Below, one piece after another: positions 5,446 to 47,801 of a DNA stretch of 47,801 bases (its first letter is position 1; every line of letters begins with the position of its first letter). The notes below the pieces were generated by a model. That model saw nothing but the letters and a program-made list of their open reading frames with translations. It ran no database searches and was not told the DNA's origin. The position numbers and the translations under genes were made by a program. The stretch is from Indolivaga macrotermitis (lineage in GTDB: Bacteria > Bacteroidota > Bacteroidia > Bacteroidales > Dysgonomonadaceae). Location: the NCBI RefSeq assembly GCF_900128985.1, contig NZ_FQUC01000022.1, positions 1 through 47,801 of the forward strand. Reading direction: 5' to 3'.

Positions 5446-5795
5446 GAGTTTGTATTAATAAATAGGTATTTGTAAGTTTGTTTTGCTATTCATTTCATCA
5501 TAAACGAATATAGTAGCTAAAAAGTTTTTAGATCTAACTAAAAAAAGTAGTTACAAAAAGTTAATTTTTTTTAATTCTAAAATTCCACTATACACCAATG
5601 GTTTAGCCAATGTCATTTACCGATCTAATCTATTGATATATGGACATATATCTAATTTGACATTATGCAGAAAAGAATATATAGAAGGCCCTTTTCGTAA
5701 TCTATACATTATTGTAAAATTTATCAATCTTCACATTATTCCCATAATTAGTGTTTACATATTATAAATTGTTGGGAAATGGCGACTGTAATAGT
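5446..5795. other. Intergenic, promoter region of the 4717-5445 gene
   Basis: AT-rich stretch that must carry the promoter of the minus-strand gene at 5445. I see no exact Bacteroides -7 box (TAnnTTTG) in it and no ORF. It leads into a coding remnant at 5796-5937. Confidence 0.4.
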
Positions 5796-5937
5796 TCATA
5801 AGTAACAAGAAGTTTTGCAAAGTAGTGTATATCTGGAATAGAATAAGGTAGTATCCATACCACTACCAGTTATCGTTGCACTTACTCGCATCATAACAAC
5901 ACCTGTAAGAGTCCAGTATAATAAATCTCAATGGATT
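5796..5937 (-). pseudogene. Possible C-terminal remnant of a GINT/C1q-type protein
   Basis: On the minus strand, a frame of 46 codons reads LLYWTLTGVVMMRVSATITG, continues SGMDTTLFYSRYTLLCKTS, and stops at 5796-5798. It has beta-strand-like alternation and Thr/Gly/Ser composition similar to the neighbouring secreted proteins, but no start codon context and no signal peptide. It may be the leftover of a further paralogue lost from the cluster. Evidence is compositional only. Confidence 0.3.
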
Positions 5938-6006
5938 GGTATCTCCGCATTATTCAACTACTGTTTTTGCTGAAATAATAAATTCTTCCTGCTCATAACA
6001 GACTCA

Positions 6007-6783
6007 TTAATGAAGAAACTCACAGACAAATGTGCAATCATCTATATTATTCGCATTTGAAGTTCCTGTCTCATCTGTATACATTGTAATTATATCATTC
6101 TGATTAAAATCTAAAACAGTAATAAAGGTGGGATTTAATCCCCAAGTATTACTATATCCGATACAATTACCGGTCCACACTATTACCCCGTTTCTATAAA
6201 CCGCCGGAACAATTTTATATGGATTATCTCCAACCCTGTTTGTCCCCCAGTGTCCGGATATCGTGATTCTGTACTTTCCCGAAAAAGGAACCTGTATAGT
6301 TCCATTTGTAGCATTCGCACCTCCCTGAGCCGGATTAGATATTATTTGTGTAGAGAAGCCCGTAACCTGTCTCATCGCATATGAAGTATAGTAAGTTGGA
6401 GTCCATTTACCATTGAGAATAGCAAACCACGAACCCGCAACAGAAGCCCATGTACCCACCCCATTGGCATCGGAGAGAAGCATCTTATTTACCCCCTCCG
6501 AGGTATCCGATATTCTGATAGCGCCTACAGACGAACTTCGTATATCGAGTTTAGTACCGGGTGCGGCAGTTCCTATACCCACACTCCCCTGATTGTCTAT
6601 AACCACATCATCGGAAGCCTGCGTAGCCGATATAGTTCCGGTTGGCGGATTAGTTGCTGCAACAGAAGAAGCTGCATCTATATGTAATAAGGTTTTAGGG
6701 TTAGTTGTATTTATTCCGATCTGAGAATATATTCCGTTATTAAGAATAAATATAAATATGACTGTTATTGTAAAAGTTTTCAT
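6007..6783 (-). CDS. Secreted GINT protein with C1q-like C-terminal domain
   Basis: 258 residues with signal peptide MKTFTITVIFIFILNNGIYS and then QIGINTTNPKTLLHIDAASS. The stalk contains DDVVIDNQGSVGIGTAAPGT and KLDIRSSSVGAIRISD, a repeat grammar shared with the next gene (DDVIIDNKGNMGIGTATPVT; KLDIVSATPGAIRIVD). Residues about 120-258 form a jelly-roll-like domain: VPFSGKYRITISGHWG, then VPAVYRNGVIVWTG, then DFNQNDIITMYTDE, and a last strand CTFVCEFLH. The gene has a paralogue immediately upstream (6879-7646), and the pair probably arose by tandem duplication. Likely role is a surface or extracellular recognition protein; the ligand is unknown. Confidence 0.85.
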   Translation of the reverse strand: MKTFTITVIFIFILNNGIYSQIGINTTNPKTLLHIDAASSVAATNPPTGTISATQASDDVVIDNQGSVGIGTAAPGTKLDIRSSSVGAIRISDTSEGVNKMLLSDANGVGTWASVAGSWFAILNGKWTPTYYTSYAMRQVTGFSTQIISNPAQGGANATNGTIQVPFSGKYRITISGHWGTNRVGDNPYKIVPAVYRNGVIVWTGNCIGYSNTWGLNPTFITVLDFNQNDIITMYTDETGTSNANNIDDCTFVCEFLH

Positions 6784-10563: not shown

Positions 10564-13500
10564 TCAATACTTCAAAAAACCAGTCATTTTCCCTCCTGTT
10601 ATTTTATAATAATTCGAAACATACTGAATTGTATCAAAAACCAGTGAATTCAACAAAACATACTCTTCAGAATTTTCGATCTTCGCCTTATCCAGAAAAT
10701 CCTTCCACCAAGGAATAAGATTAATTAAATCTTTGTAAAACACCTCCCTGACGGCTTGTCCGATGGCTGCGGGGGCGGGAGTGTCGGCAAGATTTATAGA
10801 AGAAACCCGTTCTTTTACCAAATCGAGTATGAAAATATTTTCGAGCAGGTTAACCGGAGGATTAGTATCCACCGCCTGGCTTTCGAGTGGAAAAGATTGA
10901 TATTCGGGTGGTATACGACTTACAAATGTTACGCGGTGCATTACTTTCCATGTAGGATTGAAGTTACTTTTTGCCTCTCTTAGTAATATGGCACGCGAGT
11001 CATTGGACGTGTTGAGCCATAGCGGATCCACCACTTTTTCAAAGAAATGGGTAAAATTGTCTTCGTTGGGCGAGAGATAAAACGTCATAAACCGATAAGT
11101 ATCCACTTTTCCTGGTTCGGGTTTTGAAGTGTAGTAGCGGAGAGGGTCTGAATCGCCCAAATATTTGTTGAGGAATCCTTCCGGGTCGGCATTTATTTCG
11201 AGGTTAAGGGCAGAGCCTTGTTCTTTTTGTTTCTCGACGGTTACGGAGAAGTGTGTTCCTCCTAGTAATGATGTTTCATTCCAGAGAGCAGTACCGGCAA
11301 AAACGGTTTCCAGATTAAAGTTGAATCCTAAGTTCCAATTGAAATCATAGTTTCCGCTTTGTGATTCAGTTAGTTCAGATACGTAATCTTTTTGTTCACT
11401 ATATAAACCTCCGGCTGCTGTCCAAACGTATGTGTTTACCATATTTTTCTTAGGTACGTTATTTTTCCATTCGTACAATAGGTTGTTGTCAATCACACTG
11501 TCAAGGTTTTCATCGTGACTCTTCCCTTTTTTTGCTGCGTTGAACTGGGTATAGGTGCTTCGTAGATTTTCTTCTTCGCGCTCTATTTTCTGCTTCAGAG
11601 CATAAGCCTCCCCAGGTTTGAAATAACTCCGGTCGGAGGATTCGGGGTCTTGTTGTAAGCCTATTCTTCCATCAAGACATCCATTTTTCACATAGGCCGG
11701 ATTAATCGGAAAGTACACTATATTTACGTCTTCGGGAATTTCTTTATTGGGTACGACCGACACACCGACAAGAGTACCTGTATCTTCTAATAGTAGGGTG
11801 TACATGTCCGCCGAGCCGGATTTTACAAGAGCATACCCTTCGTTACTTGGAATAAACCTCCTCTCGCCGGATTGTAGGAAAAATCCCCCTTTGATATCTG
11901 GGGCTTCCCAGTCGCCACAGTTATACATAAGGTGGCTTTCAGCTGTATGGAAAGAAGAACTTATGGATTTTCCGTTAGTTTCGTTTTCGGCCCAGTCAAT
12001 ATTTGTGGCTACGAGAAATTTAGCTTCAAGTTTGGTTATTTTCTTGTATATGAATTGTCCAGCTTCGCTTTCGCCTGAATACCCTCCTCCGATCTGAAAG
12101 GCAAAATTGGTTTGACTGCCGCTATTACGCTGTCCGTTGATGGTGATTTTATCTGTTTTCTCCTGCGTGAGTTTTACGGAGGTTACGTTATTGTATGAAC
12201 CATAAAAGGCGGGATCTTGATAATAAGGACGTGTCATATTTTCGCTTGGAATAGGTGGTGCTCCTTCTATGTATCCGATGAGTGAGGGTTTCATTTGTAT
12301 TTGTCCGAGATACACCATCTGCAAATCGCCAACCTTGTATCCCGTAATAAGACGCATTACTCCATCGGTTGTTTTGTAGATATAGGCGCGTTTTAATACG
12401 CTGAAAAGATTACCTCTGCTGTCGTATTGGCTGTCCGAATATTCAATAACCGCGGGACTACCATCAATCATAACCTGTTTACTTGTTGTCACTCCTCCGA
12501 GGGCATTGAGTACTACTGAAGCTTCGTTGCTTACGGGAGCATCTGATAATACCCATACTGGTAATTCTGTATCTTTCATACTTACAAATTTACCGTCGTT
12601 ACCATTTACGGAATAATCTACAACTATTTTTCCCGATCCTGCGTCAAATCGCCAGTATCCGACAAGGTTGGACTCTGCTCCCGATAGTTTTCGTTCCATA
12701 TTATCGGAAATTTGCTCCCAAGTGCGGGGCTGATTCCATATACGCAACTCGTCGAGACTTCCCAGGAACGGATAGAGGAAAGCCTTATCACGGCTGTACA
12801 TATTACCTATAGTGAATTGTTTTAACTGAGGCTCAAACCCGCCAAAGGCACTGGAATCACAGCTTTCTAGTATTTCTTCTTTTCCGTCTATAAGTAGAAT
12901 AAGGTTAGCGTTATCATGATACAGAATCCACATATCGCTATCACGAAAAGTTGCGTTACTATCACCTTTCTTATCATAGCCAACCCTTCCCACCTGTTCC
13001 TCAAATGTCCAACAAGCTATAATTCCATCTAATTGGCTACGGTCGAGTACATGAGAAGAATAATGATTTTTAACCTCCGGAGCGGATAAAACTTTATTCC
13101 ACAAATACAAGTCCGATAATTTTCCATAAAAATACGTATGCTCCCTTTGCTCGCTACTGTCGGGTTTAGTGCGTCCGATATTAAAAGCTGCGGTTGATGA
13201 AACTATACACACGGTATTATTTGTGTACATTTTCTTATTAGAGTCAAATATTGTACCCACTAATTCACCGTTTATATAAATATACATTTCGAGCAGGAAA
13301 TATTTTTTCACCCCTCCTGCTTTCACTTCCTCTATTTCTTCACTTAATTTTGCAGTAGCGACTATATAGTACTCTCCGCTGATAACTATTTTATCCTTCC
13401 CTGTTACTGTAAATAACTTATTTTTATCTACTGCTTTCCCTTCATATTCGCTTATTCCGGACAGGCCGATAGTAAAATAAGGATAGTTATCTTTTGTAAT

Positions 13501-16500
13501 ACCCAACTCGTAGCTTTGGTTTTCCAAATCTTTTCCGAATTTGCTGCATATTACTCTCTGGTTGTTTTCTTTTTCAGAAGAAACAAACCATGCTTCGGAA
13601 GATATTTCGTTTTCCACATTTAATAATTCCTGATTTCCGCAATCAGCATAATTTTCATTTTCCAATTTCACACCAAAATGTGGAGTATACACGACTGCGA
13701 TATGGTGCCAGTCATTTCCAGCGATAACGGCGTCTCTTGTTTGCACTGCGCTGTTATATACAGCTGCATATACGCGGTAGAACAAACCTCCATATTCCCA
13801 ATAATACGCACCGGTTACCGATGTATTATATCGTCCTTCGGTGGCTGTGGCGGTATTATTCACTTTGTCCTCTTTCTGATATATATCCATTCCCCAGCGA
13901 AGCAACAATCCGAGGGCATCGGGAGCTACTGCTTTCTGATACTGGTCGGAAATTTCTTTTGGAGCAAATGCATTATTCCATACAGTGAATAGGTTCATTT
14001 CCATTTCGAGCGCATATTGATGGGTGTTTCCTCCCAGTATTAGCGAATGGAATGTATTAATGGTATAGCCGCTTAATCTGAAGGGTGCCTTTTGATCGGC
14101 TTGTCCATTTATATAAAAACTCCAGTTATCTCCATTCCGCACAACGGTCACCATATTCCATTCCTTGTCTGTAAGTTTTGTACCGAGTATGTGTGTCGTT
14201 TGTTGCCCGTTATTTTTTATTACAAATATTAACTCTCCTTCCAGGCTGGCCTGTAATTCTTCATATTGATCTGCGTTAATTGTCGATTTTACATATAACC
14301 GCCCTGCCTTGTCTACAAGGGTATTTAAATCGGGTTTTATATAAAACTGGATAGTGTAGGTTGATGATTGGAATAATCTTTTCTCACTTTCTGCTACACT
14401 GTCATCTTTTGTTTGGAGTTGGGTTCCCTTTAAAAATTTCAGGGATGCTGTATTCGCGCATCCCATCATATACGGGAAATTGTTCTGGTCTTCTCCCAAG
14501 TTAGCATGTATTACACGCGAATATTGTATGTCTCTTATCTGGAGTTGATGTATGTTTAACCACGACTCGAGGGTTAATCCGGTAGATATTGCAAGTGTTT
14601 TTGTTGCTTCTACAGCTGGTATCTCTATTCCCGATCGTTTGTTGATGATTTTCACAGCATTTCCCGGGGGAAAGACACGCCATCCGCCGTCTTGTCCTAC
14701 CTGTTGAAGAATGCCTGTCTGTTCTCCTTTGCTGTCTGTGAGGATAGCGGGTGGATATCCATTATCGGATTGATGAGACAGATAAGCTGCAAACATAGCG
14801 GAACCTTTGGATTTTACTGATATTTGTTGTCTTCGCACCATTTTGGACCATCCCATTGTTTCCAAGCCTTGTGTTTTTTTCAATTGTAGCGTATGCGCTT
14901 CTACATCGTTTTCTACTCCCATATTCACAACGGAAAGGAACGAACAAAGAGAATATAAGCTTGCCTCCGACGGCATATTTACAATAGTATTATCTATTGA
15001 AGTGTCTACAGCCTGACGGGAATGATTAAAGAATAAATAACCTGCAATCTTTTTTTCTGTTTCCGCCCCGCTGTTTTTCATGGTATTGACAAACAGCATG
15101 AGTTTCCGGTCCACTTTTTTCCAGATTCCGATTAATCGTTCACCACCGATTTCAAGGATAATTTTCACATCACAATATGCTTCTGTATCATTGTCGGCAG
15201 GGGTTATAACAAATTCTTTTAATGAGGCCTGCAAATCGGGAACAGCAACCAGTAATTTAAACATACTGGCCTGTAGAGTGTATACACGGGTACTGCCGGG
15301 GTATATGTTTGCTCCGGTTGTATAATCGTAATTATCGGATGTTCCGTTTAGTACAGCCGTGAAAAGAGAAGCGTTTGAGGGTACATTTTTCCATCCGCTC
15401 ACAAAAGTTCCCGCCTGTGGGTTTTGCGGGTCTATGGGGCCTGTTATTTTAACGGATAGGTAATTGCTTGTTGTTTCTGCTTCGATGGTGATTGTTTGTA
15501 CTACGAAATGATCTGTTTGATTACTGATATAGAGCATATATCTTTCTAACCTCGGATTGCCCATATGCATGAAGGCTATATTATAAGCTCCTGATTCGTC
15601 ATAAAAAACAAATTTTTCTTCCTGGGATTTGAGGTCCACGGGGTCTGTTACATATTGACCACCTACAACGGAAAGGATATAATCGGCACGAGGAAGCATG
15701 CCTTGCCATTTTTCGGACGCGCTGAGCCCATCTGATAATTGGAGGCTGTAACTATTTTCTTCTGTTTTCTTTATTACAGCAGTGCTGTTATTCATGATCG
15801 TACCGGGTTGGCGTGAGGCAAACAAAATGGTACCGTGCAGGTAATTGTCGTTTAGCGGATCACCCGCCCCCCAGTTAAGCGCTGTTACTGCTCTTGCTAT
15901 ATTTGTATTATACTGTGCAGCAAGAAATCGCTGTTTTGCACCTTGATAATACAGATGTATCATACCATCGTAGCTACTTAGCAAGCATGGCCTTGTTCCC
16001 GGCTGCATATCGCCAAAGAGGTTAAAAGATTGCAAATTGTTCATTTCGGCAGTAAGCAATCCTGCTTCAAGAGTGAGTCCCTGGTCATCTGTCAGCGTGT
16101 TGAATGTGGGGGGGACAGCAGGGCAACTACTGTCTTTCCATATAGGACCTTCAAGAATTGCATCGCGACCAGGATATGTTGATGCTCCATTGTATGCTCG
16201 TGTACCGCTTCCTTCATTTAATTTCCAGTAGGCAAGCAACGCACTGTCGGCAGTTTCCTTTCCGGGTAATTCCTTATATAAAAATTCCGTTACTTTGGCA
16301 AGTTGATTTCCGCTCCATATCCTCACCTCATCCAGGTCGCCCCGGAAAGAACCCGATTCAAAACCTATCCGGTTTATTGGTTTGGCTGTGGGCTGCTGAT
16401 CTTTAAATACATCTCCTTCGGGGCTTAAAGCCTGTTCTTTGCCATTGATGTATATTTTGTATTCTCCCTGACAGAATATTACAGCCACATTATTCCATTT

Positions 16501-17772
16501 ATCATTAACAAGCACATTGTTTTCCGTTTGGGTAGATAGGAATTTTGTCCCGTTTCCAAATCCCATACCAATTTGATATTTGTTTGTAATCCACAGTAGT
16601 GGTGGATAGTCTTTTTCCTGTGTTCCGGTGTCGGGTCCCAATATGTAGTTTTTCCCTTCATTATTTTCTTCCGGGTATATCCATAATTGGATGGTGAAAG
16701 AAGAATCAAGTATTAACGGTTTTTCTCCCGAAGGAATAGTGAGATACGCCTTGTTATCAAAATGAAGACAGAACCCCGCAGGCTGGATAGTCCCCAATTG
16801 GATAGTAAGTAAAGTACCATTTCCATCGAAGAATGCGGGGATTCCGTCTTTTGATATCGCACTGTCGATAGTAGCTAACGAAACTTTTCCATTCGTAGAT
16901 TTTCCTTGTACAGTTAACAGATATCGGTAGCTGCGTTGCATTTGCAGGCGGTTGTTGTCTGCGGTCCTGACGGCTTCTTGTTTGTTGTATACTACCGCTT
17001 CGGGTATTCCTTGTACAGTGAAATTCTCTTCTTCGAGTGTTAATCTCATTACGCGGTTTGGCAATAGTATTTTTTTTTCTCCTGAAAATGGTACATCTTC
17101 TAAAGAGATCCAACCGTTTTGGGTTCTGGCAAAAGAATATGAATAAAGGCATCCGTCTTCTTCATTGACTAAAATAAACTGCCAACGTAGTTCTCCCTGT
17201 ACTCCGGTAGGAAGCAGTTCGGCACTGAATTTACCATTTCCGAGATTTACATATCCGTTAGCGGTACCTAGCGGAAGAATATAAATGGGTTCCACGAAAT
17301 TTTTCCCGTCCAGATTGAGGAAACTCTGGGTATCTTTTTTGCTGAGCGGTGTGTCGGGTTTTCCGCTTCGCTGAAAACGCACCTCCCATGAGGGTTGCAG
17401 CTCATATTGCGCGTCGGTCTGAACGTCAGCCTTTTCTTTCTGTACCATAAGGTAGCGGTTGAGGTAGAGTATGTTCTCATGGCTGCGGATTAGATATATG
17501 TATTCCTGATCGGTGACTACCTGAAAGTAGTCTGTTGTATTTATTGTTTGGGGAACACGGAGGATATTTATTCCCATCATTGCTGTTTCTTCAGGAAAGC
17601 TGAGGGTCAGTTTTCCCTGCCAGCCGTTGTCGTCGGGCGAATCTACTTTCAGGTTTAATATGTTGTATTTATAGATTACGGTAGCGTTATCGCGATCTTT
17701 CGCTGCCGAAAAATAAATGGCTTTTCCCTGATGATTTATTGCTACAGGGCTATCGGAGAATGAATTTTTCAT
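10564..17772 (-). CDS. Giant LamG/concanavalin-like protein, last gene of the tail-collar operon
   Basis: 2402 residues starting MKNSFSDSPVAINHQGKAIY, with no signal peptide or transmembrane helix. Residues about 1-320 are beta-rich with propeller-like strands. Several LamG/concanavalin-A-like domains follow: about 330-520 (FTIQLWIYPEE... YKIYINGKEQ... GDLDEVRIWSG... AYWKLNEGSG), about 1060-1300 (LTLESWLNI... WSFYINGQAD... LLRWGMDIYQK), about 1390-1590 (EAWFVSSEK... IYINGELVG... WTFEEQVG) and about 1610-1720 (GSLDELRIWNQP... GYWRFDAGSG). Residues about 1720-2402 contain a shorter conserved-looking block (IVYFPINPAYVKNGCLDGRIG) and an amphipathic beta region near 2110-2190. LamG modules bind glycans or proteins. 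Being co-transcribed with tail-collar proteins, it may be a fibre or receptor-binding subunit or an effector; this is inference. Its stop is at 10564, 86 bases from the HU gene. Confidence 0.85.
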   Translation of the reverse strand: MKNSFSDSPVAINHQGKAIYFSAAKDRDNATVIYKYNILNLKVDSPDDNGWQGKLTLSFPEETAMMGINILRVPQTINTTDYFQVVTDQEYIYLIRSHENILYLNRYLMVQKEKADVQTDAQYELQPSWEVRFQRSGKPDTPLSKKDTQSFLNLDGKNFVEPIYILPLGTANGYVNLGNGKFSAELLPTGVQGELRWQFILVNEEDGCLYSYSFARTQNGWISLEDVPFSGEKKILLPNRVMRLTLEEENFTVQGIPEAVVYNKQEAVRTADNNRLQMQRSYRYLLTVQGKSTNGKVSLATIDSAISKDGIPAFFDGNGTLLTIQLGTIQPAGFCLHFDNKAYLTIPSGEKPLILDSSFTIQLWIYPEENNEGKNYILGPDTGTQEKDYPPLLWITNKYQIGMGFGNGTKFLSTQTENNVLVNDKWNNVAVIFCQGEYKIYINGKEQALSPEGDVFKDQQPTAKPINRIGFESGSFRGDLDEVRIWSGNQLAKVTEFLYKELPGKETADSALLAYWKLNEGSGTRAYNGASTYPGRDAILEGPIWKDSSCPAVPPTFNTLTDDQGLTLEAGLLTAEMNNLQSFNLFGDMQPGTRPCLLSSYDGMIHLYYQGAKQRFLAAQYNTNIARAVTALNWGAGDPLNDNYLHGTILFASRQPGTIMNNSTAVIKKTEENSYSLQLSDGLSASEKWQGMLPRADYILSVVGGQYVTDPVDLKSQEEKFVFYDESGAYNIAFMHMGNPRLERYMLYISNQTDHFVVQTITIEAETTSNYLSVKITGPIDPQNPQAGTFVSGWKNVPSNASLFTAVLNGTSDNYDYTTGANIYPGSTRVYTLQASMFKLLVAVPDLQASLKEFVITPADNDTEAYCDVKIILEIGGERLIGIWKKVDRKLMLFVNTMKNSGAETEKKIAGYLFFNHSRQAVDTSIDNTIVNMPSEASLYSLCSFLSVVNMGVENDVEAHTLQLKKTQGLETMGWSKMVRRQQISVKSKGSAMFAAYLSHQSDNGYPPAILTDSKGEQTGILQQVGQDGGWRVFPPGNAVKIINKRSGIEIPAVEATKTLAISTGLTLESWLNIHQLQIRDIQYSRVIHANLGEDQNNFPYMMGCANTASLKFLKGTQLQTKDDSVAESEKRLFQSSTYTIQFYIKPDLNTLVDKAGRLYVKSTINADQYEELQASLEGELIFVIKNNGQQTTHILGTKLTDKEWNMVTVVRNGDNWSFYINGQADQKAPFRLSGYTINTFHSLILGGNTHQYALEMEMNLFTVWNNAFAPKEISDQYQKAVAPDALGLLLRWGMDIYQKEDKVNNTATATEGRYNTSVTGAYYWEYGGLFYRVYAAVYNSAVQTRDAVIAGNDWHHIAVVYTPHFGVKLENENYADCGNQELLNVENEISSEAWFVSSEKENNQRVICSKFGKDLENQSYELGITKDNYPYFTIGLSGISEYEGKAVDKNKLFTVTGKDKIVISGEYYIVATAKLSEEIEEVKAGGVKKYFLLEMYIYINGELVGTIFDSNKKMYTNNTVCIVSSTAAFNIGRTKPDSSEQREHTYFYGKLSDLYLWNKVLSAPEVKNHYSSHVLDRSQLDGIIACWTFEEQVGRVGYDKKGDSNATFRDSDMWILYHDNANLILLIDGKEEILESCDSSAFGGFEPQLKQFTIGNMYSRDKAFLYPFLGSLDELRIWNQPRTWEQISDNMERKLSGAESNLVGYWRFDAGSGKIVVDYSVNGNDGKFVSMKDTELPVWVLSDAPVSNEASVVLNALGGVTTSKQVMIDGSPAVIEYSDSQYDSRGNLFSVLKRAYIYKTTDGVMRLITGYKVGDLQMVYLGQIQMKPSLIGYIEGAPPIPSENMTRPYYQDPAFYGSYNNVTSVKLTQEKTDKITINGQRNSGSQTNFAFQIGGGYSGESEAGQFIYKKITKLEAKFLVATNIDWAENETNGKSISSSFHTAESHLMYNCGDWEAPDIKGGFFLQSGERRFIPSNEGYALVKSGSADMYTLLLEDTGTLVGVSVVPNKEIPEDVNIVYFPINPAYVKNGCLDGRIGLQQDPESSDRSYFKPGEAYALKQKIEREEENLRSTYTQFNAAKKGKSHDENLDSVIDNNLLYEWKNNVPKKNMVNTYVWTAAGGLYSEQKDYVSELTESQSGNYDFNWNLGFNFNLETVFAGTALWNETSLLGGTHFSVTVEKQKEQGSALNLEINADPEGFLNKYLGDSDPLRYYTSKPEPGKVDTYRFMTFYLSPNEDNFTHFFEKVVDPLWLNTSNDSRAILLREAKSNFNPTWKVMHRVTFVSRIPPEYQSFPLESQAVDTNPPVNLLENIFILDLVKERVSSINLADTPAPAAIGQAVREVFYKDLINLIPWWKDFLDKAKIENSEEYVLLNSLVFDTIQYVSNYYKITGGKMTGFLKY

Positions 17773-17796: not shown

Positions 17797-18270
17797 TTAG
17801 GTACGAGCTTTTATGTAGTAGTTTACATATACATTTATAGGTCTGGTTTCTTTGTCCCCTCCTTTGGTACAGGTATTTTGTTCTATGGTTTTTGTGTTAT
17901 CATTATATCCGATATTATCACCTTTTGTAACTCCGTGTGTTCCCTTATCGGAAGTAGGGAGATGTGGAATATTAGCTGAGAAAGATGTACCATTCGGCTT
18001 TTTTGTGCTACAGTCTTCGAACAGTCCCGGACCTAAAGTTTCCAGATTAGTTCCGGCTTTGGCTCCGCGCAGAAATTCACCCCGATAATCGGGTATCCGG
18101 AATGTTCCTTTTTGCTTATCTTCTCCGTATCTGTTGCCGATTATATCAAAAAGTTCGGCATATTCTGCCTTCGAAAGGTTCTGTCCATCACATGGAAGCC
18201 AACGATCATTCTTTGGTAAGTCATTTCCTTGCAACAAAATGGCACCTATCGGAAAAATATCTTTATTCAT
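17797..18270 (-). CDS. Phage tail-collar domain protein (single domain)
   Basis: 157 residues from MNKDIFPIGAILLQGNDLPK. The same frame extends upstream to 18345, but that adds residues overlapping the previous gene's end, so the start at 18270 is chosen. The collar domain is clear: PIGAI, then WLPCDGQNLSKAEYAELFDI, IGNRYG, FRIPDYRGEFLRGAK, and a close GGDKETRPINVYVNYYIK. The family includes short-tail-fibre proteins of phages and the microcystin-dependent (Mdp) proteins of bacteria, where the domain trimerises as a fibre foot. It is 41 bases downstream of a protein with two such domains and 24 bases upstream of the LamG giant, so the three are almost surely one operon. Confidence 0.9.
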   Translation of the reverse strand: MNKDIFPIGAILLQGNDLPKNDRWLPCDGQNLSKAEYAELFDIIGNRYGEDKQKGTFRIPDYRGEFLRGAKAGTNLETLGPGLFEDCSTKKPNGTSFSANIPHLPTSDKGTHGVTKGDNIGYNDNTKTIEQNTCTKGGDKETRPINVYVNYYIKART

Positions 18271-18311
18271 CTTACTCGTTTTTTTAGTTATAAAATCCTC
18301 TAAGTAGTTAA

Positions 18312-19385
18312 TCAGCGGAAACGGATATAATAATCTACGCTCCAATTCCGGGGTCTTGTTTCAGAATCTCCGCCTCCGGTGGCAACATTTACATTATTTA
18401 CTACACCACTATTCCATATAAAAGCGTCTTTTGCTGTTCCGGAAATAATGGAGCTACCTTCTTTTGAGGGCAAACCAGGTATTGTAGTAACAAAATCATT
18501 CATCGGATAGGCTGTGGCATCATTTTGTTTAGAGCCAACAGCATTGCCTATGTTTCCTCCTGCCAAAGAAGTTTCCCTTTTTCCGGCATCAGGATCACGA
18601 TTGGTATTTTCGCTTACTCCTCTTAGAAAATAGTCTCTGTAATCAGGTAAATTAAAAAGGAAATTCCCCGAACTGCCATGCGCGGTTCCTATCACTTTAT
18701 ATAATGTATCGAATGATCCTTTAGCCGACACCTCTTTCCCGTCACAAAGCATCCAATTTTGGGTCAGTTGATCCGGAATCTTTATTCCCGAAAAAGGAAT
18801 AACTGAACCTATGGGTGGAATAACATCCTCATTGTATTTGTCTTTGAATGAGTGCTTTATGATATAATATATGTATTTGTTTTTAGGGCGGGTTTCCAGA
18901 TCCCCTCCCTTACCATCGGTAGATACTCCAGCGCTGTTTCCTCCGTATTTTCCAGAGCTAGCAACATTACAGCCGGCATCAACGCTCCTGTTTACAATAT
19001 TGTTGCGATCTATACGAGCCTTGAAACTGTTCTTCGGTACGGCGGTAGCGTAACCTTGGTATGATCCAGGTTTATTTCCTATTGCACCACCGGACAAGAG
19101 TGATGTGCGGTCATTTTTATCGGGGTCATTATTTGTTGTACCGCTTGTACCGCGAATAAATACTCCGCGCAGGTCGGGTACATTAAAATGGTTATCATCC
19201 GCCTGTCCATAGTTCATTCTTATTGCATTAAAAAGTTCTCCATACTCTCCGGTACGCGCGAGTGATTGTCCGTTGCAATAGAGCCAACCCAATTCCTTGA
19301 GTTCTTTTTCCTTATCTCTATTTATAGCTCCGGCATAGGACAGGATTGTTCCTATGGGCAAAAAAACTGAAACATCTGTGTTCAT
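18312..19385 (-). CDS. Tandem tail-collar domain protein
   Basis: 357 residues with two collar domains in a row. The first has PIGTILSYAGAI near residue 11, WLYCNGQSLA, FNVPDLRGVFIRGTSG and a close GGDLETRPKNKYIYYIIK. The second, from about residue 192, has PIGSVIPFSGIK, WMLCDGKEVS, FNLPDYRDYFLRGVSE and a close GGGDSETRPRNWSVDYYIRF. All collar units in this operon share the GGD-ETRP-N signature, so the tandem arose by internal duplication or fusion. There is no signal peptide. It follows the 228-aa gene by 20 bases and precedes the single-collar gene. The likely role is a trimeric fibre or adapter component. Confidence 0.9.
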   Translation of the reverse strand: MNTDVSVFLPIGTILSYAGAINRDKEKELKELGWLYCNGQSLARTGEYGELFNAIRMNYGQADDNHFNVPDLRGVFIRGTSGTTNNDPDKNDRTSLLSGGAIGNKPGSYQGYATAVPKNSFKARIDRNNIVNRSVDAGCNVASSGKYGGNSAGVSTDGKGGDLETRPKNKYIYYIIKHSFKDKYNEDVIPPIGSVIPFSGIKIPDQLTQNWMLCDGKEVSAKGSFDTLYKVIGTAHGSSGNFLFNLPDYRDYFLRGVSENTNRDPDAGKRETSLAGGNIGNAVGSKQNDATAYPMNDFVTTIPGLPSKEGSSIISGTAKDAFIWNSGVVNNVNVATGGGDSETRPRNWSVDYYIRFR

Positions 19386-30019: not shown

Positions 30020-31012
30020 CTATTTTCCTTTTAACCTTCCGACAATATTACCACCTGCGGCACCGGCTACACCTCCGGCGATTGCTCCGCCTTTGGTTGC
30101 AGTCTGATTTACATTCTTACCGAAGTTCCCCATACCTCCTGCTGAGATGATCCATCCGGCAACTGTCGGAATGGTAAAATATCCGATAATACCTATAATC
30201 AGGAACACAATGTAAATGGCATCGGAACTGTCCAGTGAGAAGTTCGGATCAGCCTGCATCCGTTCAATATCAGCTTGTAGCATCAATGATTGAAGCCTGG
30301 CTAGTATTGTACTGAATAAATCCGAAACAGGCAGCCACAGATAGACCGATACATAGCGGGTAATCCATTGGGTTAGGGTCGATGAAAAGCCGTCCCAGAC
30401 AGATATGGCGAAGGCAATAGGTCCGAGGATAGCCAGTACTATCAGGAAGAAAGTTCGGATTACATCTATCACCAGCGCTGCCGCTTTGAAAATGATCTCA
30501 AGCACCTCGCGGAATGCTTCCCGTATCCATTTCTTGGCATTGTACAGTCCCCGTTCGATATACATGCCTGCTATCTGTCCCGCATCCATAATCCCCAGTT
30601 CATCCAGTTGGGCTTCGAAGATTTCATTATCGACCAGATAAGCGGTTTCAGGGTTTCGCCGCATGGCTTCGTATTCCAGCTTGTCTTTTATCTCTGCATA
30701 TTTCTGCATATCGAATGTTTCAGACTGGAGCATCCCGTGTGTTCCCTGAACGACAGGACTCAATATACTATTGATGGTGCCCAGTACAATACTCGGAAAA
30801 AACATAATGCAAAGACCGATGGCAAAGGGACGCAGTAACGGATACACATCTATCGGTTCTGCCCGAGAGAGAGATTGCCAGACACGGTGGGCGACATAAA
30901 ATAATGCACCCAGTCCGGCTATCCCTTTGGCTACTCCGACCATATTACTGCATAATGGTATCATCTGGTCATAGAGTGTCCGTAATGTTTCATGAAATTG
31001 ATCAAAATCCAT
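30020..31012 (-). CDS. traJ: TraJ-type conjugal transfer protein (VirB6-like)
   Basis: 330 residues, starting MDFDQFHETLRTLYDQMIPL. Several membrane segments are seen: VGVAKGIAGLGALFYVAHRV, LRPFAIGLCIMFFPSIVLGT, AAALVIDVIRTFFLIVLAIL, GPIAFAISVW and AIYIVFLIIGIIGYFTIPTV. It ends with a Gly/Ala-rich tail (GGAIAGGVAGAAGGNIVG). This is the Bacteroides TraJ pattern, a polytopic inner-membrane channel component comparable to VirB6. It is 19 bases after traI. Its stop faces the stop of the oppositely oriented gene 29676-30017. Confidence 0.9.
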   Translation of the reverse strand: MDFDQFHETLRTLYDQMIPLCSNMVGVAKGIAGLGALFYVAHRVWQSLSRAEPIDVYPLLRPFAIGLCIMFFPSIVLGTINSILSPVVQGTHGMLQSETFDMQKYAEIKDKLEYEAMRRNPETAYLVDNEIFEAQLDELGIMDAGQIAGMYIERGLYNAKKWIREAFREVLEIIFKAAALVIDVIRTFFLIVLAILGPIAFAISVWDGFSSTLTQWITRYVSVYLWLPVSDLFSTILARLQSLMLQADIERMQADPNFSLDSSDAIYIVFLIIGIIGYFTIPTVAGWIISAGGMGNFGKNVNQTATKGGAIAGGVAGAAGGNIVGRLKGK

Positions 31013-31031: not shown

Positions 31032-31661
31032 TTACCAATAGCGTTCGTCCGGATTACCATACAAGGCATTTATGCGGGAGGTCTCACCGCTTTTCTTTGC
31101 CCGGAGGTAAGAAACGCCAATATTTTTATTGGTGTAATACTTAACAAGGTTCCTGTAACGGACCATCGAGTCATGGCAATGATCCACAACTTCCATACGG
31201 TCTTTATCCGTCAGAGATAAGGTGCTGATATTAACGACTTCTTTCAGTTCGCTTAATACATCATTGCTTTGCTCCAACAGTTTGGCATAGCCGGATGCAA
31301 TGGCATTGAGTTCTTCTATGGTGTAATTCGGATCCTGAAGCATCTTTTGGAAACTGTTGACATAGATATCCGATACTTCTCCAACCATCAGTATGGTCTT
31401 CTGGACTTTCCTGGCATCTTTTACCAGATTGTTGACAGCTTTCAGGGCATCGTAATATTCTTTTCCCTGATTATAAACCTTTTGGACTTCCTTAAAATTA
31501 TTGATCATATTAGTCGCTGTCGAGGAAGTATGTACAATCTGTTTGGTTGTATTGGCTATTCCCTGTGCCAGGTTGGAAGGGTCAATAACTGTCCATTGAG
31601 CATTTATATGGGTTGTGAAAAGCACAAGGCTTAGGCACAACATGAAGATTTTTATTTTCAT
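31032..31661 (-). CDS. traI: TraI-type conjugal transfer protein (DUF4141, VirB5-like)
   Basis: 209 residues. Signal peptide MKIKIFMLCLSLVLFTTHIN, then AQWTVIDPSNLAQGIANTTK, the hallmark start of DUF4141/TraI. The rest is a helical periplasmic protein (VYNQGKEYYDALKAVNNLVK; YIVEELNAIASGYAKLL-like helix; KDRMEVVDHCHDSMVRYRNL) ending NALYGNPDERYW. It is comparable in plan to VirB5 pilus-tip proteins. In this element it is separated from traG by an inserted fimbrial operon and lies just downstream of that operon's terminator (31724-31753), so it needs read-through or its own promoter. Confidence 0.9.
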   Translation of the reverse strand: MKIKIFMLCLSLVLFTTHINAQWTVIDPSNLAQGIANTTKQIVHTSSTATNMINNFKEVQKVYNQGKEYYDALKAVNNLVKDARKVQKTILMVGEVSDIYVNSFQKMLQDPNYTIEELNAIASGYAKLLEQSNDVLSELKEVVNISTLSLTDKDRMEVVDHCHDSMVRYRNLVKYYTNKNIGVSYLRAKKSGETSRINALYGNPDERYW

Positions 31662-38447: not shown

Positions 38448-40955
38448 TTAGCTTTTGTTTATTTTACTTCCTGCCAGTTGTTTTATTGCCTGTTCTATAT
38501 CCCCTCCCAGCTTATTGGCTAACCTCAATACTTCCAACTTTTCGGTTTCCTCTGTCGTATAGGTCAGATATTCCTGTTTGGAAACTTCCGTCGCATAGAC
38601 AGCCGATTGTACGCCCCCCAGACCGATCCAAACCTCCTTATAAAACCGTCCCGGGTTATTGGACATATTAATGGATAGTATTTGTGACTTTTCCTTGTCC
38701 GTCAGTCCCAGCAGTTCCTGTATTGAGTCAAACTTATTCATATACTTTCGCTGGTCAAGAAGTATTTTACAGTCCGAATTATTGATAATACTTTCCTTGA
38801 CAATCGCTGAAGAAAGAAGGTCCTGGATCTCCTGTGTAACAGTAACGACTTCACCATAAAACTTCCTGACGGTTTTATACATATACTTCAGATACTCGGC
38901 CATATTCGGAGTAGAAAGGGCTTTCCATGCTTCCTCAATTATCAATTGTTTACGAATACCTTTCAACCGTCTCATCTTATTGATAAAGGCTTCCATAATG
39001 ATAATGGTTACTACAGGGAAAAGGTCTTTGTTTTCCTTGATGGCATCAATCTCGAATACGATAAAGCGTTTGTTCAACAAGTCCAGTTCCTTATCCGAGT
39101 TTAACAGGAAGTCAAAGCGTCCGCCTTTGTAATATTGACGAAGCGTAGTCAGCAGGTTATCAATATTGAAATCCTCCTTATCTACCTTAATTTCCCGTTT
39201 ACCCAGTTCGGCTTTATACTCATCTCTCATAAATTCATAGAAAGTATTGAAACTTGGCACAATGTTCCGATCTGTTTGTATCCGCCTGATATATTCATCG
39301 ACGGCACTGCCCAGCTCTCCCGATTCAGTCTTGGATATCCTGTCGTCTTCACTTTTCCAAAGTGTCAGTAACAAGGTTTTCAAGCTGTCCTTTTTCTCCA
39401 CATCGAATTGGTTGTCATCCGTATAAAACGGATTGAAAGAAATCGGATTCTCTTCGGTATAGGTAAAATAGACCCCATCTTCCCCTTTAGTCTTGCTGCG
39501 GATCATCTCACATAGGCCCTGATAGGAATTACCCGTATCCACAAGGACAACGTGCGTGCCCTGCTCCCAGTACTGGCGGACGAGGTGATTCATAAAAAAG
39601 GATTTTCCGCTGCCCGAAGGTCCCAGTACAAATTTGTTACGGTTGGTAATAATTCCTTTTTTCATGGGTAAGTCGGAAATATCTACATGGAGAGGTCTTC
39701 CCGTTACCCTATCTACCATCTTAATACCGAACGGAGAAGGCGAACTTTTATAGTTGGTTTCCTCGATGAAGAAACACAATGCCTGCTCGATAAAGGTGTA
39801 GAAGGATTCTTCACTTGGAAAGTCCCCCGCATTACCCGGAATACCCGCCCAGAACAAAGTCGCTGTATCTACCGTGTTATGCCTTGGTTTACATTCCATT
39901 AATGCCAGCTGACTTCCCACATCGTTCTTTATCCGGCTTAGTTCTTCCCTGTCATCGCTCCATGCCATTACATTGACATGGCAGCGCACCGAAGTCAGTC
40001 CATAGCTATGAGCATCGTTCAGGTAGTCTTCGATCCACTCTTTATTGATTTGGTTGGAACGGCTGTACTTTGACAGGGAATGCATATTACGTGCCTGTTT
40101 CTCAAAACGTTTGAGATTCTCCGTATGATCATCAATAAAGATGTATTGATTAACTATATGGTTACAAGACAGCAACACTCCGATAGGAGCAGCAAAGGAC
40201 AAGCGGCAATCGCTCCGGTCGGTAGATAAACGTTCATAACGGATATCGGTATTGATTTTCCCCGGCAGGTCTTCCACATCCGATAGTGTATGCAGGCATA
40301 GGTGTTTATCTCCTATTTTCATATCTCCTGCCTTCAGTGCAATGTCCTGTAAACAGGTCGTGTCTTGCTGCGAAAGGGAAAAATACTTTTCTACAATTCC
40401 GGCTTGCTCACTCGTGCCGACAATCTCATCAGTTGTAATACGAATCAGTTTAATAAACCCCGAATCATTAATAATCCGCTCAAATTGCCCGACTGCTTCA
40501 ATAAACTTCTGAAGGGTTTCCTTATCCTGCATTTCTTTGGGAATGATAAAGCCCCGTGTCAGTGCATTGAAGTTGCTTTGCTGGCGTGCCCTCTCTTTAG
40601 TCGTCTTGGTAACGAACAGGTAGGAATTATGGTTTAGAAACGGACGCTCATTGAAATGGCGTTCAAAACTCCGTGATAAGAAACTAATATCCTCCTTATC
40701 CAGTTCTGGCTTGTATTTTTCCTCCACAAACCAGTCCTGACGATGTACGACACTGTAATTAGGCAGAACCTTGATTGCTTTCAGCCAAGCGGAGTGCATT
40801 GCTTCGTATTCGGCGGATGTTACGGTAAACAGTTCGGGCAGTTCTACACGGTAGGCTACCGACAGGTCGGCATCTTTACTCAGGATGTAATCATGTTCGA
40901 CTGTCAATAAGGGGAATTTACTCTCCAGTGTTGCTGCTTTGGCTGTATTTCTCAT
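38448..40955 (-). CDS. traG: TraG conjugation ATPase (VirB4-like)
   Basis: 835 residues. N-terminal VirB4-like region (about 1-400), then an ATPase with Walker A at about residues 443-452 (VLGPSGSGKSFFMNH) and Walker B/hallmark LIIEEAWKAL at about 670. The conserved SKYSRSNQINKEWIEDYLND and GFIIPKEMQDKETLQKF stretches are characteristic of Bacteroides TraG. It is the energy source for pilus assembly and DNA transfer at the inner membrane. The ATG overlaps the stop of traF by 4 bases (40952-40955). The gene is followed not by traI but by the inserted fimbrial operon. Confidence 0.95.
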   Translation of the reverse strand: MRNTAKAATLESKFPLLTVEHDYILSKDADLSVAYRVELPELFTVTSAEYEAMHSAWLKAIKVLPNYSVVHRQDWFVEEKYKPELDKEDISFLSRSFERHFNERPFLNHNSYLFVTKTTKERARQQSNFNALTRGFIIPKEMQDKETLQKFIEAVGQFERIINDSGFIKLIRITTDEIVGTSEQAGIVEKYFSLSQQDTTCLQDIALKAGDMKIGDKHLCLHTLSDVEDLPGKINTDIRYERLSTDRSDCRLSFAAPIGVLLSCNHIVNQYIFIDDHTENLKRFEKQARNMHSLSKYSRSNQINKEWIEDYLNDAHSYGLTSVRCHVNVMAWSDDREELSRIKNDVGSQLALMECKPRHNTVDTATLFWAGIPGNAGDFPSEESFYTFIEQALCFFIEETNYKSSPSPFGIKMVDRVTGRPLHVDISDLPMKKGIITNRNKFVLGPSGSGKSFFMNHLVRQYWEQGTHVVLVDTGNSYQGLCEMIRSKTKGEDGVYFTYTEENPISFNPFYTDDNQFDVEKKDSLKTLLLTLWKSEDDRISKTESGELGSAVDEYIRRIQTDRNIVPSFNTFYEFMRDEYKAELGKREIKVDKEDFNIDNLLTTLRQYYKGGRFDFLLNSDKELDLLNKRFIVFEIDAIKENKDLFPVVTIIIMEAFINKMRRLKGIRKQLIIEEAWKALSTPNMAEYLKYMYKTVRKFYGEVVTVTQEIQDLLSSAIVKESIINNSDCKILLDQRKYMNKFDSIQELLGLTDKEKSQILSINMSNNPGRFYKEVWIGLGGVQSAVYATEVSKQEYLTYTTEETEKLEVLRLANKLGGDIEQAIKQLAGSKINKS

Positions 40956-44855: not shown

Positions 44856-45311
44856 ATGTTTATGAAACAGAAGAATAATTTAAAGAACAAGGGTGGACGA
44901 ATCCCCCTTGCAGATCCGGCGAAGAACCGGCATGTATTTTACCTGAACGATGCAGACGAAATTCGCTTTACGACTCTTTATCATCAATCGGAAGCCAAGA
45001 ATATGGCTCACTTTATTACCTCCTGCATATTTGACAACCCTGTAAAAGTCGTCAAAATAGATAAAGGGCTGCATGATTATTATATGCGATTGACAACATT
45101 TTTTGACCAGTTCCGTGCAATCGGGCACAATTACAACCAACTTATAAAGATGCTTCACTCCAATTTCGGAGAGAAAAAAGCATTGGCTTTTCTTTATAAA
45201 CTGGAGCAGGCAACTATCGAATTGGCTGGGTTGAATAAGAAAATTATAGAATTGACACACGAGTTTGAACAAAAATATCTTGCGGATGGTAGCCAAAATC
45301 AGCTCGGGTAA
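44856..45311 (+). CDS. mobA: MobA-type relaxosome accessory protein
   Basis: 151 residues starting MFMKQKNNLKNKGGRIPLAD; the second Met is an alternative start. The pattern GGRIPLADPAKNRHVFYLND (basic, then a short beta-strand) looks like a ribbon-helix-helix-type DNA-binding start, and the rest is helical with a conserved RAIGHNYNQLIKMLHSNFGE stretch as in MobC-like relaxosome proteins of MOBP elements and MobA of CTnDOT-type elements. It is probably the oriT-binding helper that recruits MobB. It lies 70 bases from the oriT candidate and overlaps mobB by 26 bases. Confidence 0.85.
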   Translation: MFMKQKNNLKNKGGRIPLADPAKNRHVFYLNDADEIRFTTLYHQSEAKNMAHFITSCIFDNPVKVVKIDKGLHDYYMRLTTFFDQFRAIGHNYNQLIKMLHSNFGEKKALAFLYKLEQATIELAGLNKKIIELTHEFEQKYLADGSQNQLG

Positions 45312-46515
45312 ATCGCTTTTCGGAGCACTATCATATAACCAGACCAAGGTTGATAAAGGTCAGGCAGATGTTCTTTTCAGTCAAAATATTATCCGCACAA
45401 TAGATGGTTCTTATAATATTCCTCTATGTATGCGCTCCTTTGCTCCTTATCTTGCAGCTAATAATAAAACTATAAATCCGACTATCCATATTTCATTGAA
45501 TCCTCATCCGGATGATGTATTGACCGACGAACAGTTAAGCTGTATAGCACAGGAGTACATGGATAAGTTAGGTTATGGCAGGCAACCCTATCTGGTATAT
45601 AAGCATGACGATATTGACCGGAAACACATTCATATAGTATCAATACGGATAGACGAGAATGGTAAAAAGATAAACGATTCTTTTGAGAAAAAGCGGTCTG
45701 ATACTATCCGAAAGGAACTTGAAAAGAAGTACAATCTGCTACCGGCTGAACAACAAAAGAACAGTAATAACTTACCACTAAAGCCTGTGGACATCAAAGT
45801 AGGTAATGTAAAAAGGCAAGTGGGAAACATTGCTAAAAGCCTGATGAAAGACTACCGCTTTCAAAGCATCAATGAGTATCGGGCGCTCCTCAATATTTAT
45901 GGTGTAACTGTAGAAGAAGTAAAAGGAGAGGTTCGGGATAAAGCCTACAACGGGTTGGTTTATTCGGCATTGGATAAGAAAGGAGAAAAAACAGGTAATC
46001 CATTTAAGGCATCTCTGATTGGGAGGGATGTAGGCTATGATATTTTGCAGAACCGGATTGCCTTTTCTAAAAAGTCAATGAGAGAAAATCCGGTATATAA
46101 CAGAACTAAAGCCATAGTTTCAAATGCTCTACACAGCAAACCGAAGCGTAAGAATTTTGAAAAGGAGCTGGCAAAGAATGGTATCTCCGTATTATTCCGG
46201 GAGAATAAGGATAAACGTATCTATGGGGTAACCTTTATCGACCATCAGGAAAAAGCAGTATTCAATGGTTCAAAGATGGGTAAAGAATTTTCGGCTAATA
46301 CTTTTCAGAATCTATTTAACGGACAATCTGATGATAAAACTACCAATAATCAGGTATTCGATAATGACAAGGACTACACTACTTCTCAAGAGTCGGCAGT
46401 CGAGGCCATGGCAGGGCTTTTCTCTATGGAACAGCACGGGGATAATTATGAAGAGATTGTTTTTTCTAACCGGATGAAACGCAAGAAGAAAAAGCCACGC
46501 AGGCCGAAATTATAA
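45286..46515 (+). CDS. mobB: MobB relaxase (MOBP-type)
   Basis: 409 residues from ATG at 45286 (MVAKISSGKSLFGALSYNQT), the usual start of Bacteroides MobB relaxases; a TTG at 45265 would add seven residues inside mobA and is rejected. The metal-binding histidine motif is RKHIHIVSIRID near residue 112, preceded by the YMDKLGYGRQPYLVYKHDD stretch and an N-terminal Tyr (YNQT) that may be the nucleophile. The C-terminal half is basic and helical with a KRKKKKPRRPKL tail. It nicks oriT and leads the strand through the TraG/MobC channel. It sits between mobA and mobC with 39 bases to mobC. Confidence 0.93.
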   Translation: MVAKISSGKSLFGALSYNQTKVDKGQADVLFSQNIIRTIDGSYNIPLCMRSFAPYLAANNKTINPTIHISLNPHPDDVLTDEQLSCIAQEYMDKLGYGRQPYLVYKHDDIDRKHIHIVSIRIDENGKKINDSFEKKRSDTIRKELEKKYNLLPAEQQKNSNNLPLKPVDIKVGNVKRQVGNIAKSLMKDYRFQSINEYRALLNIYGVTVEEVKGEVRDKAYNGLVYSALDKKGEKTGNPFKASLIGRDVGYDILQNRIAFSKKSMRENPVYNRTKAIVSNALHSKPKRKNFEKELAKNGISVLFRENKDKRIYGVTFIDHQEKAVFNGSKMGKEFSANTFQNLFNGQSDDKTTNNQVFDNDKDYTTSQESAVEAMAGLFSMEQHGDNYEEIVFSNRMKRKKKKPRRPKL

Positions 46516-46554: not shown

Positions 46555-47706
46555 ATGCAAAACGAAGATGATTTAAGAGGCTTAGCCAAAGTAATGGAGT
46601 TCATGAGGGCCATTAGTATATTATTTGTAATCATTCATATTTATTGGTTCTGTTACCAGTCTATTCGGGAAACGGGTATTAATATAGGAGTTGTGGATAA
46701 AATTCTGCTGAATTTCCAGAATACCGCAGGACTATTTTCAAATATCCTATGGACAAAGTTATTTGCTGTGGTGTTTCTGGCTTTATCCTGTCTGGGGACA
46801 AAAGGTGTAAAGGAGGAAAAAATCACATGGAGCAAGATATATGTATTCCTGTTCTTTGGCTTTATATTTTTCTTTCTCAACTGGTGGATACTGGTTTTAC
46901 CTTTGCCATTAGTTGCCAATACCGGTATTTATATTTTTACCATGACCATTGGATATATACTGTTATTGATGGCCGGACTTTGGATGAGTCGTTTATTAAA
47001 GACCAACCTGATGGAAGATGTTTTCAACAACGAGAATGAATCATTCATGCAGGAAACACGGTTGATGGAGAACGAATATTCGGTAAACCTGCCCACATTA
47101 TTTCAATACAAAGGGAGGAAACATAAGGGATGGATAAATGTTGTTAATCCTTTTCGGGCTTCTATTGTCTTGGGAACTCCGGGAAGTGGAAAATCTTATG
47201 CTATTGTCAATAATTATATCAGGCAGCAATTAAGCAAAGGGTTCTCTATGTATATATATGATTACAAATTTGATGATTTGAGTACCATTGCTTATAACGA
47301 ATTATTGAAGAATATGGATAAATACAAGGTGAAACCAAAATTCTATGTAATAAACTTCGATAATCCGGCTAAAAGCCACCGATGTAACCCGATTGCTCCC
47401 GAGTTTATGACCGACATTAGTGACGCATACGAATCGGCATATACGATAATGCTTAACCTGAATAAGACATGGATACAAAAACAGGGGGACTTCTTTGTGG
47501 AATCACCTATTATCTTACTGGCCGCCATTATCTGGTATCTGAAAATATATAAGAATGGAAAATATTGCACATTTCCTCATGCTATCGAGTTCCTGAATAA
47601 GAAATATGCAGATACATTTACTATTCTGACTTCTTATCCCGAACTTGAGAATTACCTGAGCCCCTTTATGGATGCTTGGGAAGGCGGAGCGCAAGATCAG
47701 TTGCAA
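46555..47706 (+). CDS. mobC: MobC/TraG-type coupling protein (VirD4-like), 5' exon only
   Basis: 384 codons of the coupling ATPase are seen. Four membrane helices lie in the first 150 residues (ISILFVIIHIYWFCY; LFAVVFLALSCLG; IYVFLFFGFIFFFLNWWILV; IFTMTIGYILLLMAGLW). The ATPase domain starts with Walker A VLGTPGSGKSYAIVN at about residues 204-215, then DYKFDDLSTIAYNE, and QKQGDFFVESPIILLAAIIW. The protein matches family sequences as far as AWEGGAQDQLQ. In the family GQIASAKIPL-type sequence should follow, but the frame instead runs VRP and stops at 47718. The break coincides with a group II intron 5' end at 47707, so the gene is split and its 3' exon lies beyond the window. It recruits the relaxosome to the transfer channel. 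Confidence 0.9.
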
Positions 47707-47801
47707 GTGCGCCCGTAAGGGTATATAATAAATATAGCTTTGGCAAGCTATTAGGTTCGCGTTCTTTGAAAAATAACCTATCATCACCCGGCTTATCCGT
47801 C
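47707..47801 (+). mobile_element. 5' end of a group II intron inside mobC
   Basis: The sequence begins GTGCGCCC directly after a complete codon of mobC, agreeing with the group II 5' consensus GUGYG and closely with the start of the lactococcal Ll.LtrB intron (GUGCGCCC...AGGGUG). Folding by eye gives GCCC-GUAA-GGGU (47711-47722), then ATAGCTT-TGGC-AAGCTAT (47735-47752) and TAGGTT / AACCTA (47752-47779), the same order of hairpins as at the start of domain I. The 5' exon ends CAGTTGCAA, a candidate IBS1. Domains I-VI and the intron protein lie outside the window, so the element is recognised only from its 95 bases. Confidence 0.8.

Follow-up and report, generated by a model that had tools for sequence, protein, structure and literature searches.

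A group II intron interrupting the coupling-protein gene mobC of an Indolivaga macrotermitis conjugative element

Near the end of one contig of the Indolivaga macrotermitis draft genome, the reading frame of a conjugative coupling-protein gene, mobC, follows its family for 384 codons and then breaks. Is the gene decayed, misassembled, or interrupted by an element that is removed from its RNA, and where is the remainder of it? The window analysed here is the whole of contig C9 (NZ_FQUC01000022.1, 47,801 nt), one of 49 contigs in the draft. A first-pass annotation had proposed that the break is the beginning of a group II intron; the 5' part of mobC and the intron start do lie in the window as it described, with the small correction that the window ends where the contig ends, 95 nt into the intron. 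Upstream of mobC are the Bacteroidota conjugative-element genes traN, traM, traK, traJ, traG (VirB4 type), mobA and mobB. A TraI-looking gene in the window gave only weak TrbJ matches in a profile search, and has a motif in common with the TraI-type genes that related introns interrupt elsewhere. Also beside the tra genes are a 2,402-aa ORF (10564-17772, minus strand), LamG-like by eye, and, after it, ORFs at 17797-19385 that resemble phage tail collar proteins by eye. The features discussed below, in window coordinates, are:

44856-45311, plus strand: mobA gene (NF041324, 192 bits, cut-off 150)
45289-46515, plus strand: mobB relaxase gene, directly upstream of mobC (NF041325, 555 bits, cut-off 400)
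46555-47706, plus strand: mobC exon 1, residues 1-384 of a VirD4-type coupling protein, with a YWFCY domain and Walker A motif GTPGSGKS at residue 207
47701-47706, plus strand: IBS1 (TTGCAA), the final six bases of exon 1, pairing 6/6 (G-U included) with EBS1 TTGTAG of the Bacteroides gallinarum and Phocaeicola plebeius mobC-site introns
47707-47801, plus strand: the group II intron as far as the contig end (95 nt), with its GUGCG 5' end and the beginning of domain I
47716-47718, plus strand: in-frame TAA closing the unspliced reading (387 aa, ...DQLQVRP)
47734-47751, plus strand: second hairpin of domain I, pairing 47734-47740 with 47745-47751 and showing compensatory changes in an alignment of 10 introns
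47752-47780, plus strand: domain I stem 3 (47752-47757 with 47775-47780), from the same alignment

Boundaries of the interruption and the second exon

The mobC frame (384 codons, ending ...GAQDQLQ) runs on past 47706 as GTG CGC CCG TAA, with the stop ending at 47718. Exon 1 alone matches positions 1-383 of the 655 in the Bacteroid_MobC model (NF041326) at 616 bits, where the cut-off of 900 is meant for the whole protein. As the annotation had read it, the family match breaks after ...GAQDQLQ, exactly at 47706/47707; two paralogues in the same genome, on contigs C29 and C32, continue there from DQLM into GQIAS. Its choice of GTGCGCCC as the intron 5' end was also sound: the 95 nt from 47707 recur, 100% identical, on contig C36 beside an unrelated exon, so GTGCGCCC is a real element boundary. 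The GTGCG at 47707 agrees with the group II 5' end GUGYG and is the same in this second copy; a chance occurrence of GTGCG is ruled out, since the 95 nt recur at another place in this genome as well as in a relative (see below). The window alone gave no match to Rfam.

A domain V, a 3' AY end and in-frame GQIAS-like mobC sequence had been predicted downstream, and all three are found on contig C23. Its first 93 nt match the Rfam model Intron_gpII (RF00029) at 41.5 bits (gathering 40) over model positions 7-77 of 77, the match being cut 5' by the contig start; contig C30 gives the same score, and on both contigs domain V lacks no more than its first few bases. The catalytic triad of domain V lies in its first bases. 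In the predicted fold of domain VI an A stays unpaired 7 nt before the 3' end, and the intron finishes in CCTAT, hence in AT. Directly after it MobC resumes, its second part beginning at base 94 of C23 with the GQIAS-like sequence. Joined to exon 1 this part gives, in frame, a 667-aa MobC that is collinear with, and of the same length as, the corresponding parts of the paralogues (residues 155-654 on C29 and 155-667 on C32), both of which are uninterrupted and constitute empty sites. The exons thus rejoin in frame at a site that is elsewhere unbroken, and a frameshift or pseudogene break in mobC is ruled out because exon 2 was found in frame. Exon 2 holds VIIDELP at its residue 77, Walker-B-like by eye. 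Continuity of the reading frame makes C23, and not some other contig, the probable continuation of C9.

The abrupt end of C9 is accounted for by a second copy of the intron. Contigs C30 and C36 are the two flanks of a second insertion, antisense in a DJ-1/PfpI-type gene: 163 residues on C36 match DJ-1/PfpI at 50.2 bits, and the start of the gene can be read by eye on C30. The last 95 nt of C9 reappear, reverse-complemented, where C36 begins, with a different exon adjoining. The shared terminal sequence is exactly 95 nt in this pair and likewise between C23 and C30 (the first 95 of each), where it comprises 93 nt of intron 3' end and a GG that both exons happen to have. Two intron copies with identical ends would break an assembly and leave C9 to stop inside the intron; the exact 95-nt overlaps at both ends of a two-copy repeat look like the footprint of a k-mer assembler. 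Being antisense, the second copy cannot splice out of the DJ-1/PfpI gene's own mRNA. The genome holds both near-identical copies (the DJ-1/PfpI copy has ends identical over 95 nt on each side) and empty targets (mobC on C29 and C32), and the identity of the ends at both sides implies recent mobility. As the junction is located at a contig end, one might suspect a chimera in which mobC has been joined to an unrelated repeat. The identical junction occurs at the same codon boundary within contigs of other organisms, in independent genomes, and exon 2 was found with the reciprocal intron end, which leaves the chimera a negligible probability and led to its rejection.

Neither the interior of the intron nor an intron reverse transcriptase (RT) was found in the readable sequence of the genome, whose short contigs, as fetched, read N, so that the search is uninformative; for this copy the RT, EBS1 and the start of domain V are deduced from its relatives. 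PF08388 found nothing in the genome, but it is unsuited to this class of intron, since it does not match the intron protein of Dysgonomonas alginatilytica described below either. Separately, contig C12 (47504-48316) carries a 346-aa RT ORF that scores 110 bits against TIGR04416, below the intron-RT cut-off of 300, and that fits a generic RT model best among those of PADLOC.

The annotation had further folded the start of the intron into three domain I hairpins. In an alignment of 10 introns (where row L056 carried 24 exon bases in front and was cut short), hairpin 2 has three pairs changed on both sides with 98.6% of cells paired, and in hairpin 3 one pair is so changed and 91.4% of cells are paired. 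No pair of hairpin 1 shows such changes (85% paired, with one pair broken in five of the ten introns). The three together give a covariation score of 0.188 against 0.093 in shuffled alignments (0/500 as high), with an ordinary count of further pair types (61/500 shuffles). Taken by themselves, the 95 nt have an unremarkable folding energy (z -0.24; 78 of 200 shuffles as low).

A complete relative and recognition of the target

In Dysgonomonas alginatilytica DSM 100214 (NZ_QICL01000063.1) the same mobC site is occupied by an intron that is complete, at 2,553 nt; a single 4,079-bp contig holds most of mobC exon 1, the intron and the start of exon 2. Compared with this intron, that of I. macrotermitis is 93% identical over its first 92 nt and 94% over its last 78 nt; the adjoining IBS1 is TTGATG there, with a Met codon, and TTGCAA in the window, with a Gln codon. 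The D. alginatilytica intron has a whole domain V and an RT: its 610-aa protein contains RVT_1, Intron_maturas2 and AI2M-like HNH domains, scores 300.8 bits against TIGR04416, barely over the cut-off of 300, and has as its best PDB match LtrA of Ll.LtrB (5g2x, E 7.6e-152). Across seven sources, RF00029 was matched over gathering in six (L031 53.9, L032 56.8, L034 56.7, L035 57.2, and C23 and C30 at 41.5 each), the exception being L033, whose record stops inside the intron; domain V is whole in L031, L032, L034 and L035. The mobC-site intron belongs to what we take to be the IIA, LtrB-like class. Two traits bear on this: an LtrA-like RT/maturase/HNH protein is present in the D. alginatilytica relative, and EBS1-IBS1 pairing with delta-delta' beside EBS1 holds across the relatives. 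A delta base directly beside EBS1 is the arrangement of IIA introns.

The pairings were scored in 43 distinct introns out of 47 aligned, themselves drawn from 49 tabulated (L087 had no 5' end found and L063 no 5' exon); the 3' end was found by pattern in 30. Pairing between a domain I loop and the final six exon bases reaches a summed score of 387, against a mean of 235 and a maximum of 297 in shuffles that ignore relatedness (0/2000 as high). All six positions are paired in 24 of the 43, against a mean of 5.5 and a maximum of 13 in shuffles of the same kind. The delta-delta' pair, between the base before EBS1 and the first base of exon 2, is present in 27 of 30 introns (missing in L056, L091 and L035), where shuffles that again ignore relatedness give a mean of 14.4 and a maximum of 22 (0/5000 as high). 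TTGCAA had been named as IBS1 at the first pass; it does pair with the EBS1 of relatives at six of six positions, and its position is corrected to 47701-47706.

The codon before 26 empty mobC sites is ATG in 11, CAG in 7, CAA in 7 and GCA in 1 (counting L003 and L160, which are one gene, and L143-L146, which do not differ in sequence at the site); six further loci did not match the empty-site pattern, one of them being the interrupted gene of Xylanibacter muris. In X. muris, EBS1 is CATCAG and the site ends in ATG. In B. gallinarum and P. plebeius, EBS1 is TTGTAG, with sites ending in CAA and CAG and one mismatch each; TTGTAG also pairs 6/6 with the TTGCAA of the window and with the TTACAG of the second copy. 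The fit is weak in D. alginatilytica (L050; two Watson-Crick and four G-U pairs) and in Bacteroidales bacterium OttesenSCG-928-M11 (L061; 4/6), as it is in two relatives at other sites, L060 and L035 (score 3 of 12 each). From these few cases, EBS1 may track the Met/Gln codon variation of the mobC site.

The mobC site in other organisms

MobC was searched by tblastn against the fetched loci (the best 80 of 114 relatives, and others). An intron splits it at residue 384/385, and both exons were recovered, in D. alginatilytica, B. gallinarum, P. plebeius, P. coprocola, X. muris and Bacteroidales bacterium OttesenSCG-928-M11, and the downstream exon alone, with the same split, was found in Paramuribaculum and a Tannerellaceae bin. 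Among 393 genomes of the order, with at most three candidates scored per genome, MobC was matched in 33 and was split in two, I. macrotermitis itself and X. muris. Among the matches listed, at least 40 that exceed the family cut-off run across the site unbroken, 5 of the 40 having an in-frame stop somewhere. The junction pattern was matched in seven of the 393 genomes and a reversed control pattern in two; of the seven, the same two genomes are mobC cases, and the match in G273, when read, did not look like an intron and was set aside. The intron RT was found at E 1e-100 in four of the 393, X. muris among them, and a relative of mobC exon 1 in 117 plasmid records. Exact scans with a 22-base pattern gave no match in either genome_contigs or viral_contigs; a protein scan of viral_contigs gave four relatives, the best 44% identical.

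RT trees were built from 58 rows and then from 52, after removal of L091, L094, L096 and L103 (frame-broken) and of L100 and L102 (long branches). In the 52-row tree, six mobC-site introns from four families, two of the six being identical, form one clade (100/100), and the mobC-site intron of M11 is placed elsewhere. A single origin, with all seven rows as one clade, was rejected (p-AU 0.0005, for a grouping set before the 52-row tree but after the 58-row tree had been seen). The mobC site is the home of one intron lineage, and a second lineage arrived there separately.

Several occupants of the site depart from the usual form. Two mobC-site introns, in L051 (2946) and L061 (1182), start with CTGCG, not GTGCG, and that of L051 ends in CCAGT in place of CCTAT; the first and penultimate bases of L051 may have changed together, or the CTGCG copies may be dying. 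In the Tannerellaceae bin (L103), a further break divides mobC exon 2 near residue 455, the pieces lying about 900 bp apart (4858-6561), and the RT region contains 15 stops when read in a single frame. Might the copy in I. macrotermitis, too, be a shortened, ORF-less or protein-dead intron in decay, one that splices, if it does, with help in trans? The impaired look of L051, L061 and L103 would be consistent with this, as would the failure to find an intron RT among the genome sequence that can be read, and there is a precedent for an ORF-less intron in a VirD4 gene, B.th.I2 of the Bacillus plasmid pAW63, which has been described as putatively ORF-less, in a 935-bp gap (PMC1196294). Nevertheless, the identical 95-nt ends at both sides of two copies imply recent mobility, the short contigs that read N make the absence of an RT uninformative, and the closely similar D. 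alginatilytica intron has an intact ORF. We consider a decayed copy quite improbable.

Consequences for transfer and comparison with known systems

The annotation's central proposal, a group II intron interrupting a conjugative coupling-protein gene, is borne out by two exact boundaries, exons that join in frame, domain VI and a domain V that lacks just its start, a second copy in the genome, and complete relatives at the same site. The best explanation of the whole, which we hold with high confidence, is that mobC is split between codons 384 and 385 (DQLQ/GQIAS) by a mobile LtrB-like (IIA) group II intron that would be spliced out and would spread by retrohoming. The intron RNA, with its maturase, would remove itself so that the 667-aa MobC is made. 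The 387-aa unspliced reading extends three codons into the intron and retains Walker A, and it lacks the Walker-B-like stretch of exon 2, so an active coupling protein should need splicing. In retrohoming, EBS1 and delta of domain I would find an empty mobC by its IBS1 and the base that opens exon 2, the HNH domain would cut the second strand, and conjugation would carry the intron between hosts. Conjugation itself would then depend on the splicing of mobC, a claim weakened by the two uninterrupted paralogues in the genome, which could supply MobC in trans. As MobC is the coupling protein of one class of Bacteroidota conjugative elements, an intron here would add a splicing step to its transfer path.

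By analogy with Ll.LtrB, the excised intron may also reopen the spliced mobC mRNA through EBS-IBS pairing and damp transfer. In the case of Ll.LtrB, the excised intron is reported to reopen the relaxase mRNA, which is lost, and to reduce conjugation frequency 3- to 4-fold (PMC6003770). That the intron is mainly such a brake, a regulatory device keeping transfer low, is a possibility to which we give somewhat less than even weight: complementarity of EBS1 to the exon is kept in several mobC-site introns, but it is poor in L050 and L061, and braking would add to splicing rather than replace it as an explanation. Splicing followed by retrohoming remains the preferred account.

Related introns occupy other genes. 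The 5'-exon pieces of 12 of them, searched unjoined, match transfer genes in seven cases and not in the other five:

L056, L064 and L093: TraG/VirB4, at three different places
L060: MobB/relaxase, ending at the HxH motif (by eye)
L067: TraJ, a fragment below the whole-protein cut-off
L071: DUF4141, annotated as TraI in a close relative
L069 (2490-2939): CD1115-type VirD4 of a Clostridiales bin, where the interrupted gene again encodes a coupling protein
Non-transfer hosts: helicase C-terminal domain (L084), tyrosine recombinase (L083), Toprim (L070) and M23 peptidase (L035)
L075: nothing matched in the family search

The motifs taken by such introns elsewhere (in TraI, TraG/VirB4 at three places, TraJ and MobB) are all uninterrupted, by eye, in the element of the window (31032-31661, 38448-40955 and 30020-31012, all minus strand, and 45289-46515, plus strand). 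Three records hold the same intron family with RT and domain V but in a different host: TraG/VirB4 in Bacteroides faecis (NZ_CP103143.1), a gene annotated TraI in B. ovatus (NZ_CP081918.1), and a place in or just after an M23-peptidase-like stretch of an Alistipes plasmid (NZ_AP023050.1). One may go further and propose a guild of related IIA introns that share out the conserved motifs of conjugation genes, one home codon in one gene to a lineage, with EBS1 of the mobC lineage following the Met/Gln codon, and with splicing and mRNA reopening acting as element-specific switches of conjugation. The homes cited for it are the coupling protein, three places in the VirB4-type ATPase, the relaxase HxH motif, TraI and TraJ; as a whole it strikes us as unlikely.

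Introns in transfer genes are already known, and the mobC intron is a new member of this group. No paper on it was found in the open-licence literature, most subscription papers being outside the scope of the search. One source counts group II introns across gut genomes (PMC6907783); another, a Bacteroides thetaiotaomicron transcriptome table, has a YWFCY-domain gene adjoining a group II intron RT within BT2614 to 32 (PMC10434189), which may be the same arrangement. Like Ll.LtrB, which resides in the relaxase gene ltrB of pRS01 in Lactococcus lactis, the mobC-site intron is a mobile one lodged in an essential transfer gene, and its complete D. alginatilytica form encodes an LtrA-like protein; unlike it, the host gene is that of the coupling protein and not the relaxase. 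Splicing of Ll.LtrB has been reported to enable relaxase expression, and the relaxase to stimulate intron mobility (PMC4256276). The D. alginatilytica protein is 46% identical to a Lactococcus plasmid RT located just after a relaxase-domain gene, and this RT forms a long branch outside the Bacteroidota lineages in the tree. B.th.I2 shares with the mobC intron its place in a VirD4-type coupling-protein gene, and differs in being putatively ORF-less, whereas the complete D. alginatilytica relative encodes an RT/maturase/HNH protein. What is added here is one lineage at home in mobC, a second and separate arrival, and several relatives in other transfer genes. A home site used across four families, together with that second arrival and the motifs taken in other transfer genes, makes the link between introns and conjugation testable beyond the lactococcal model.
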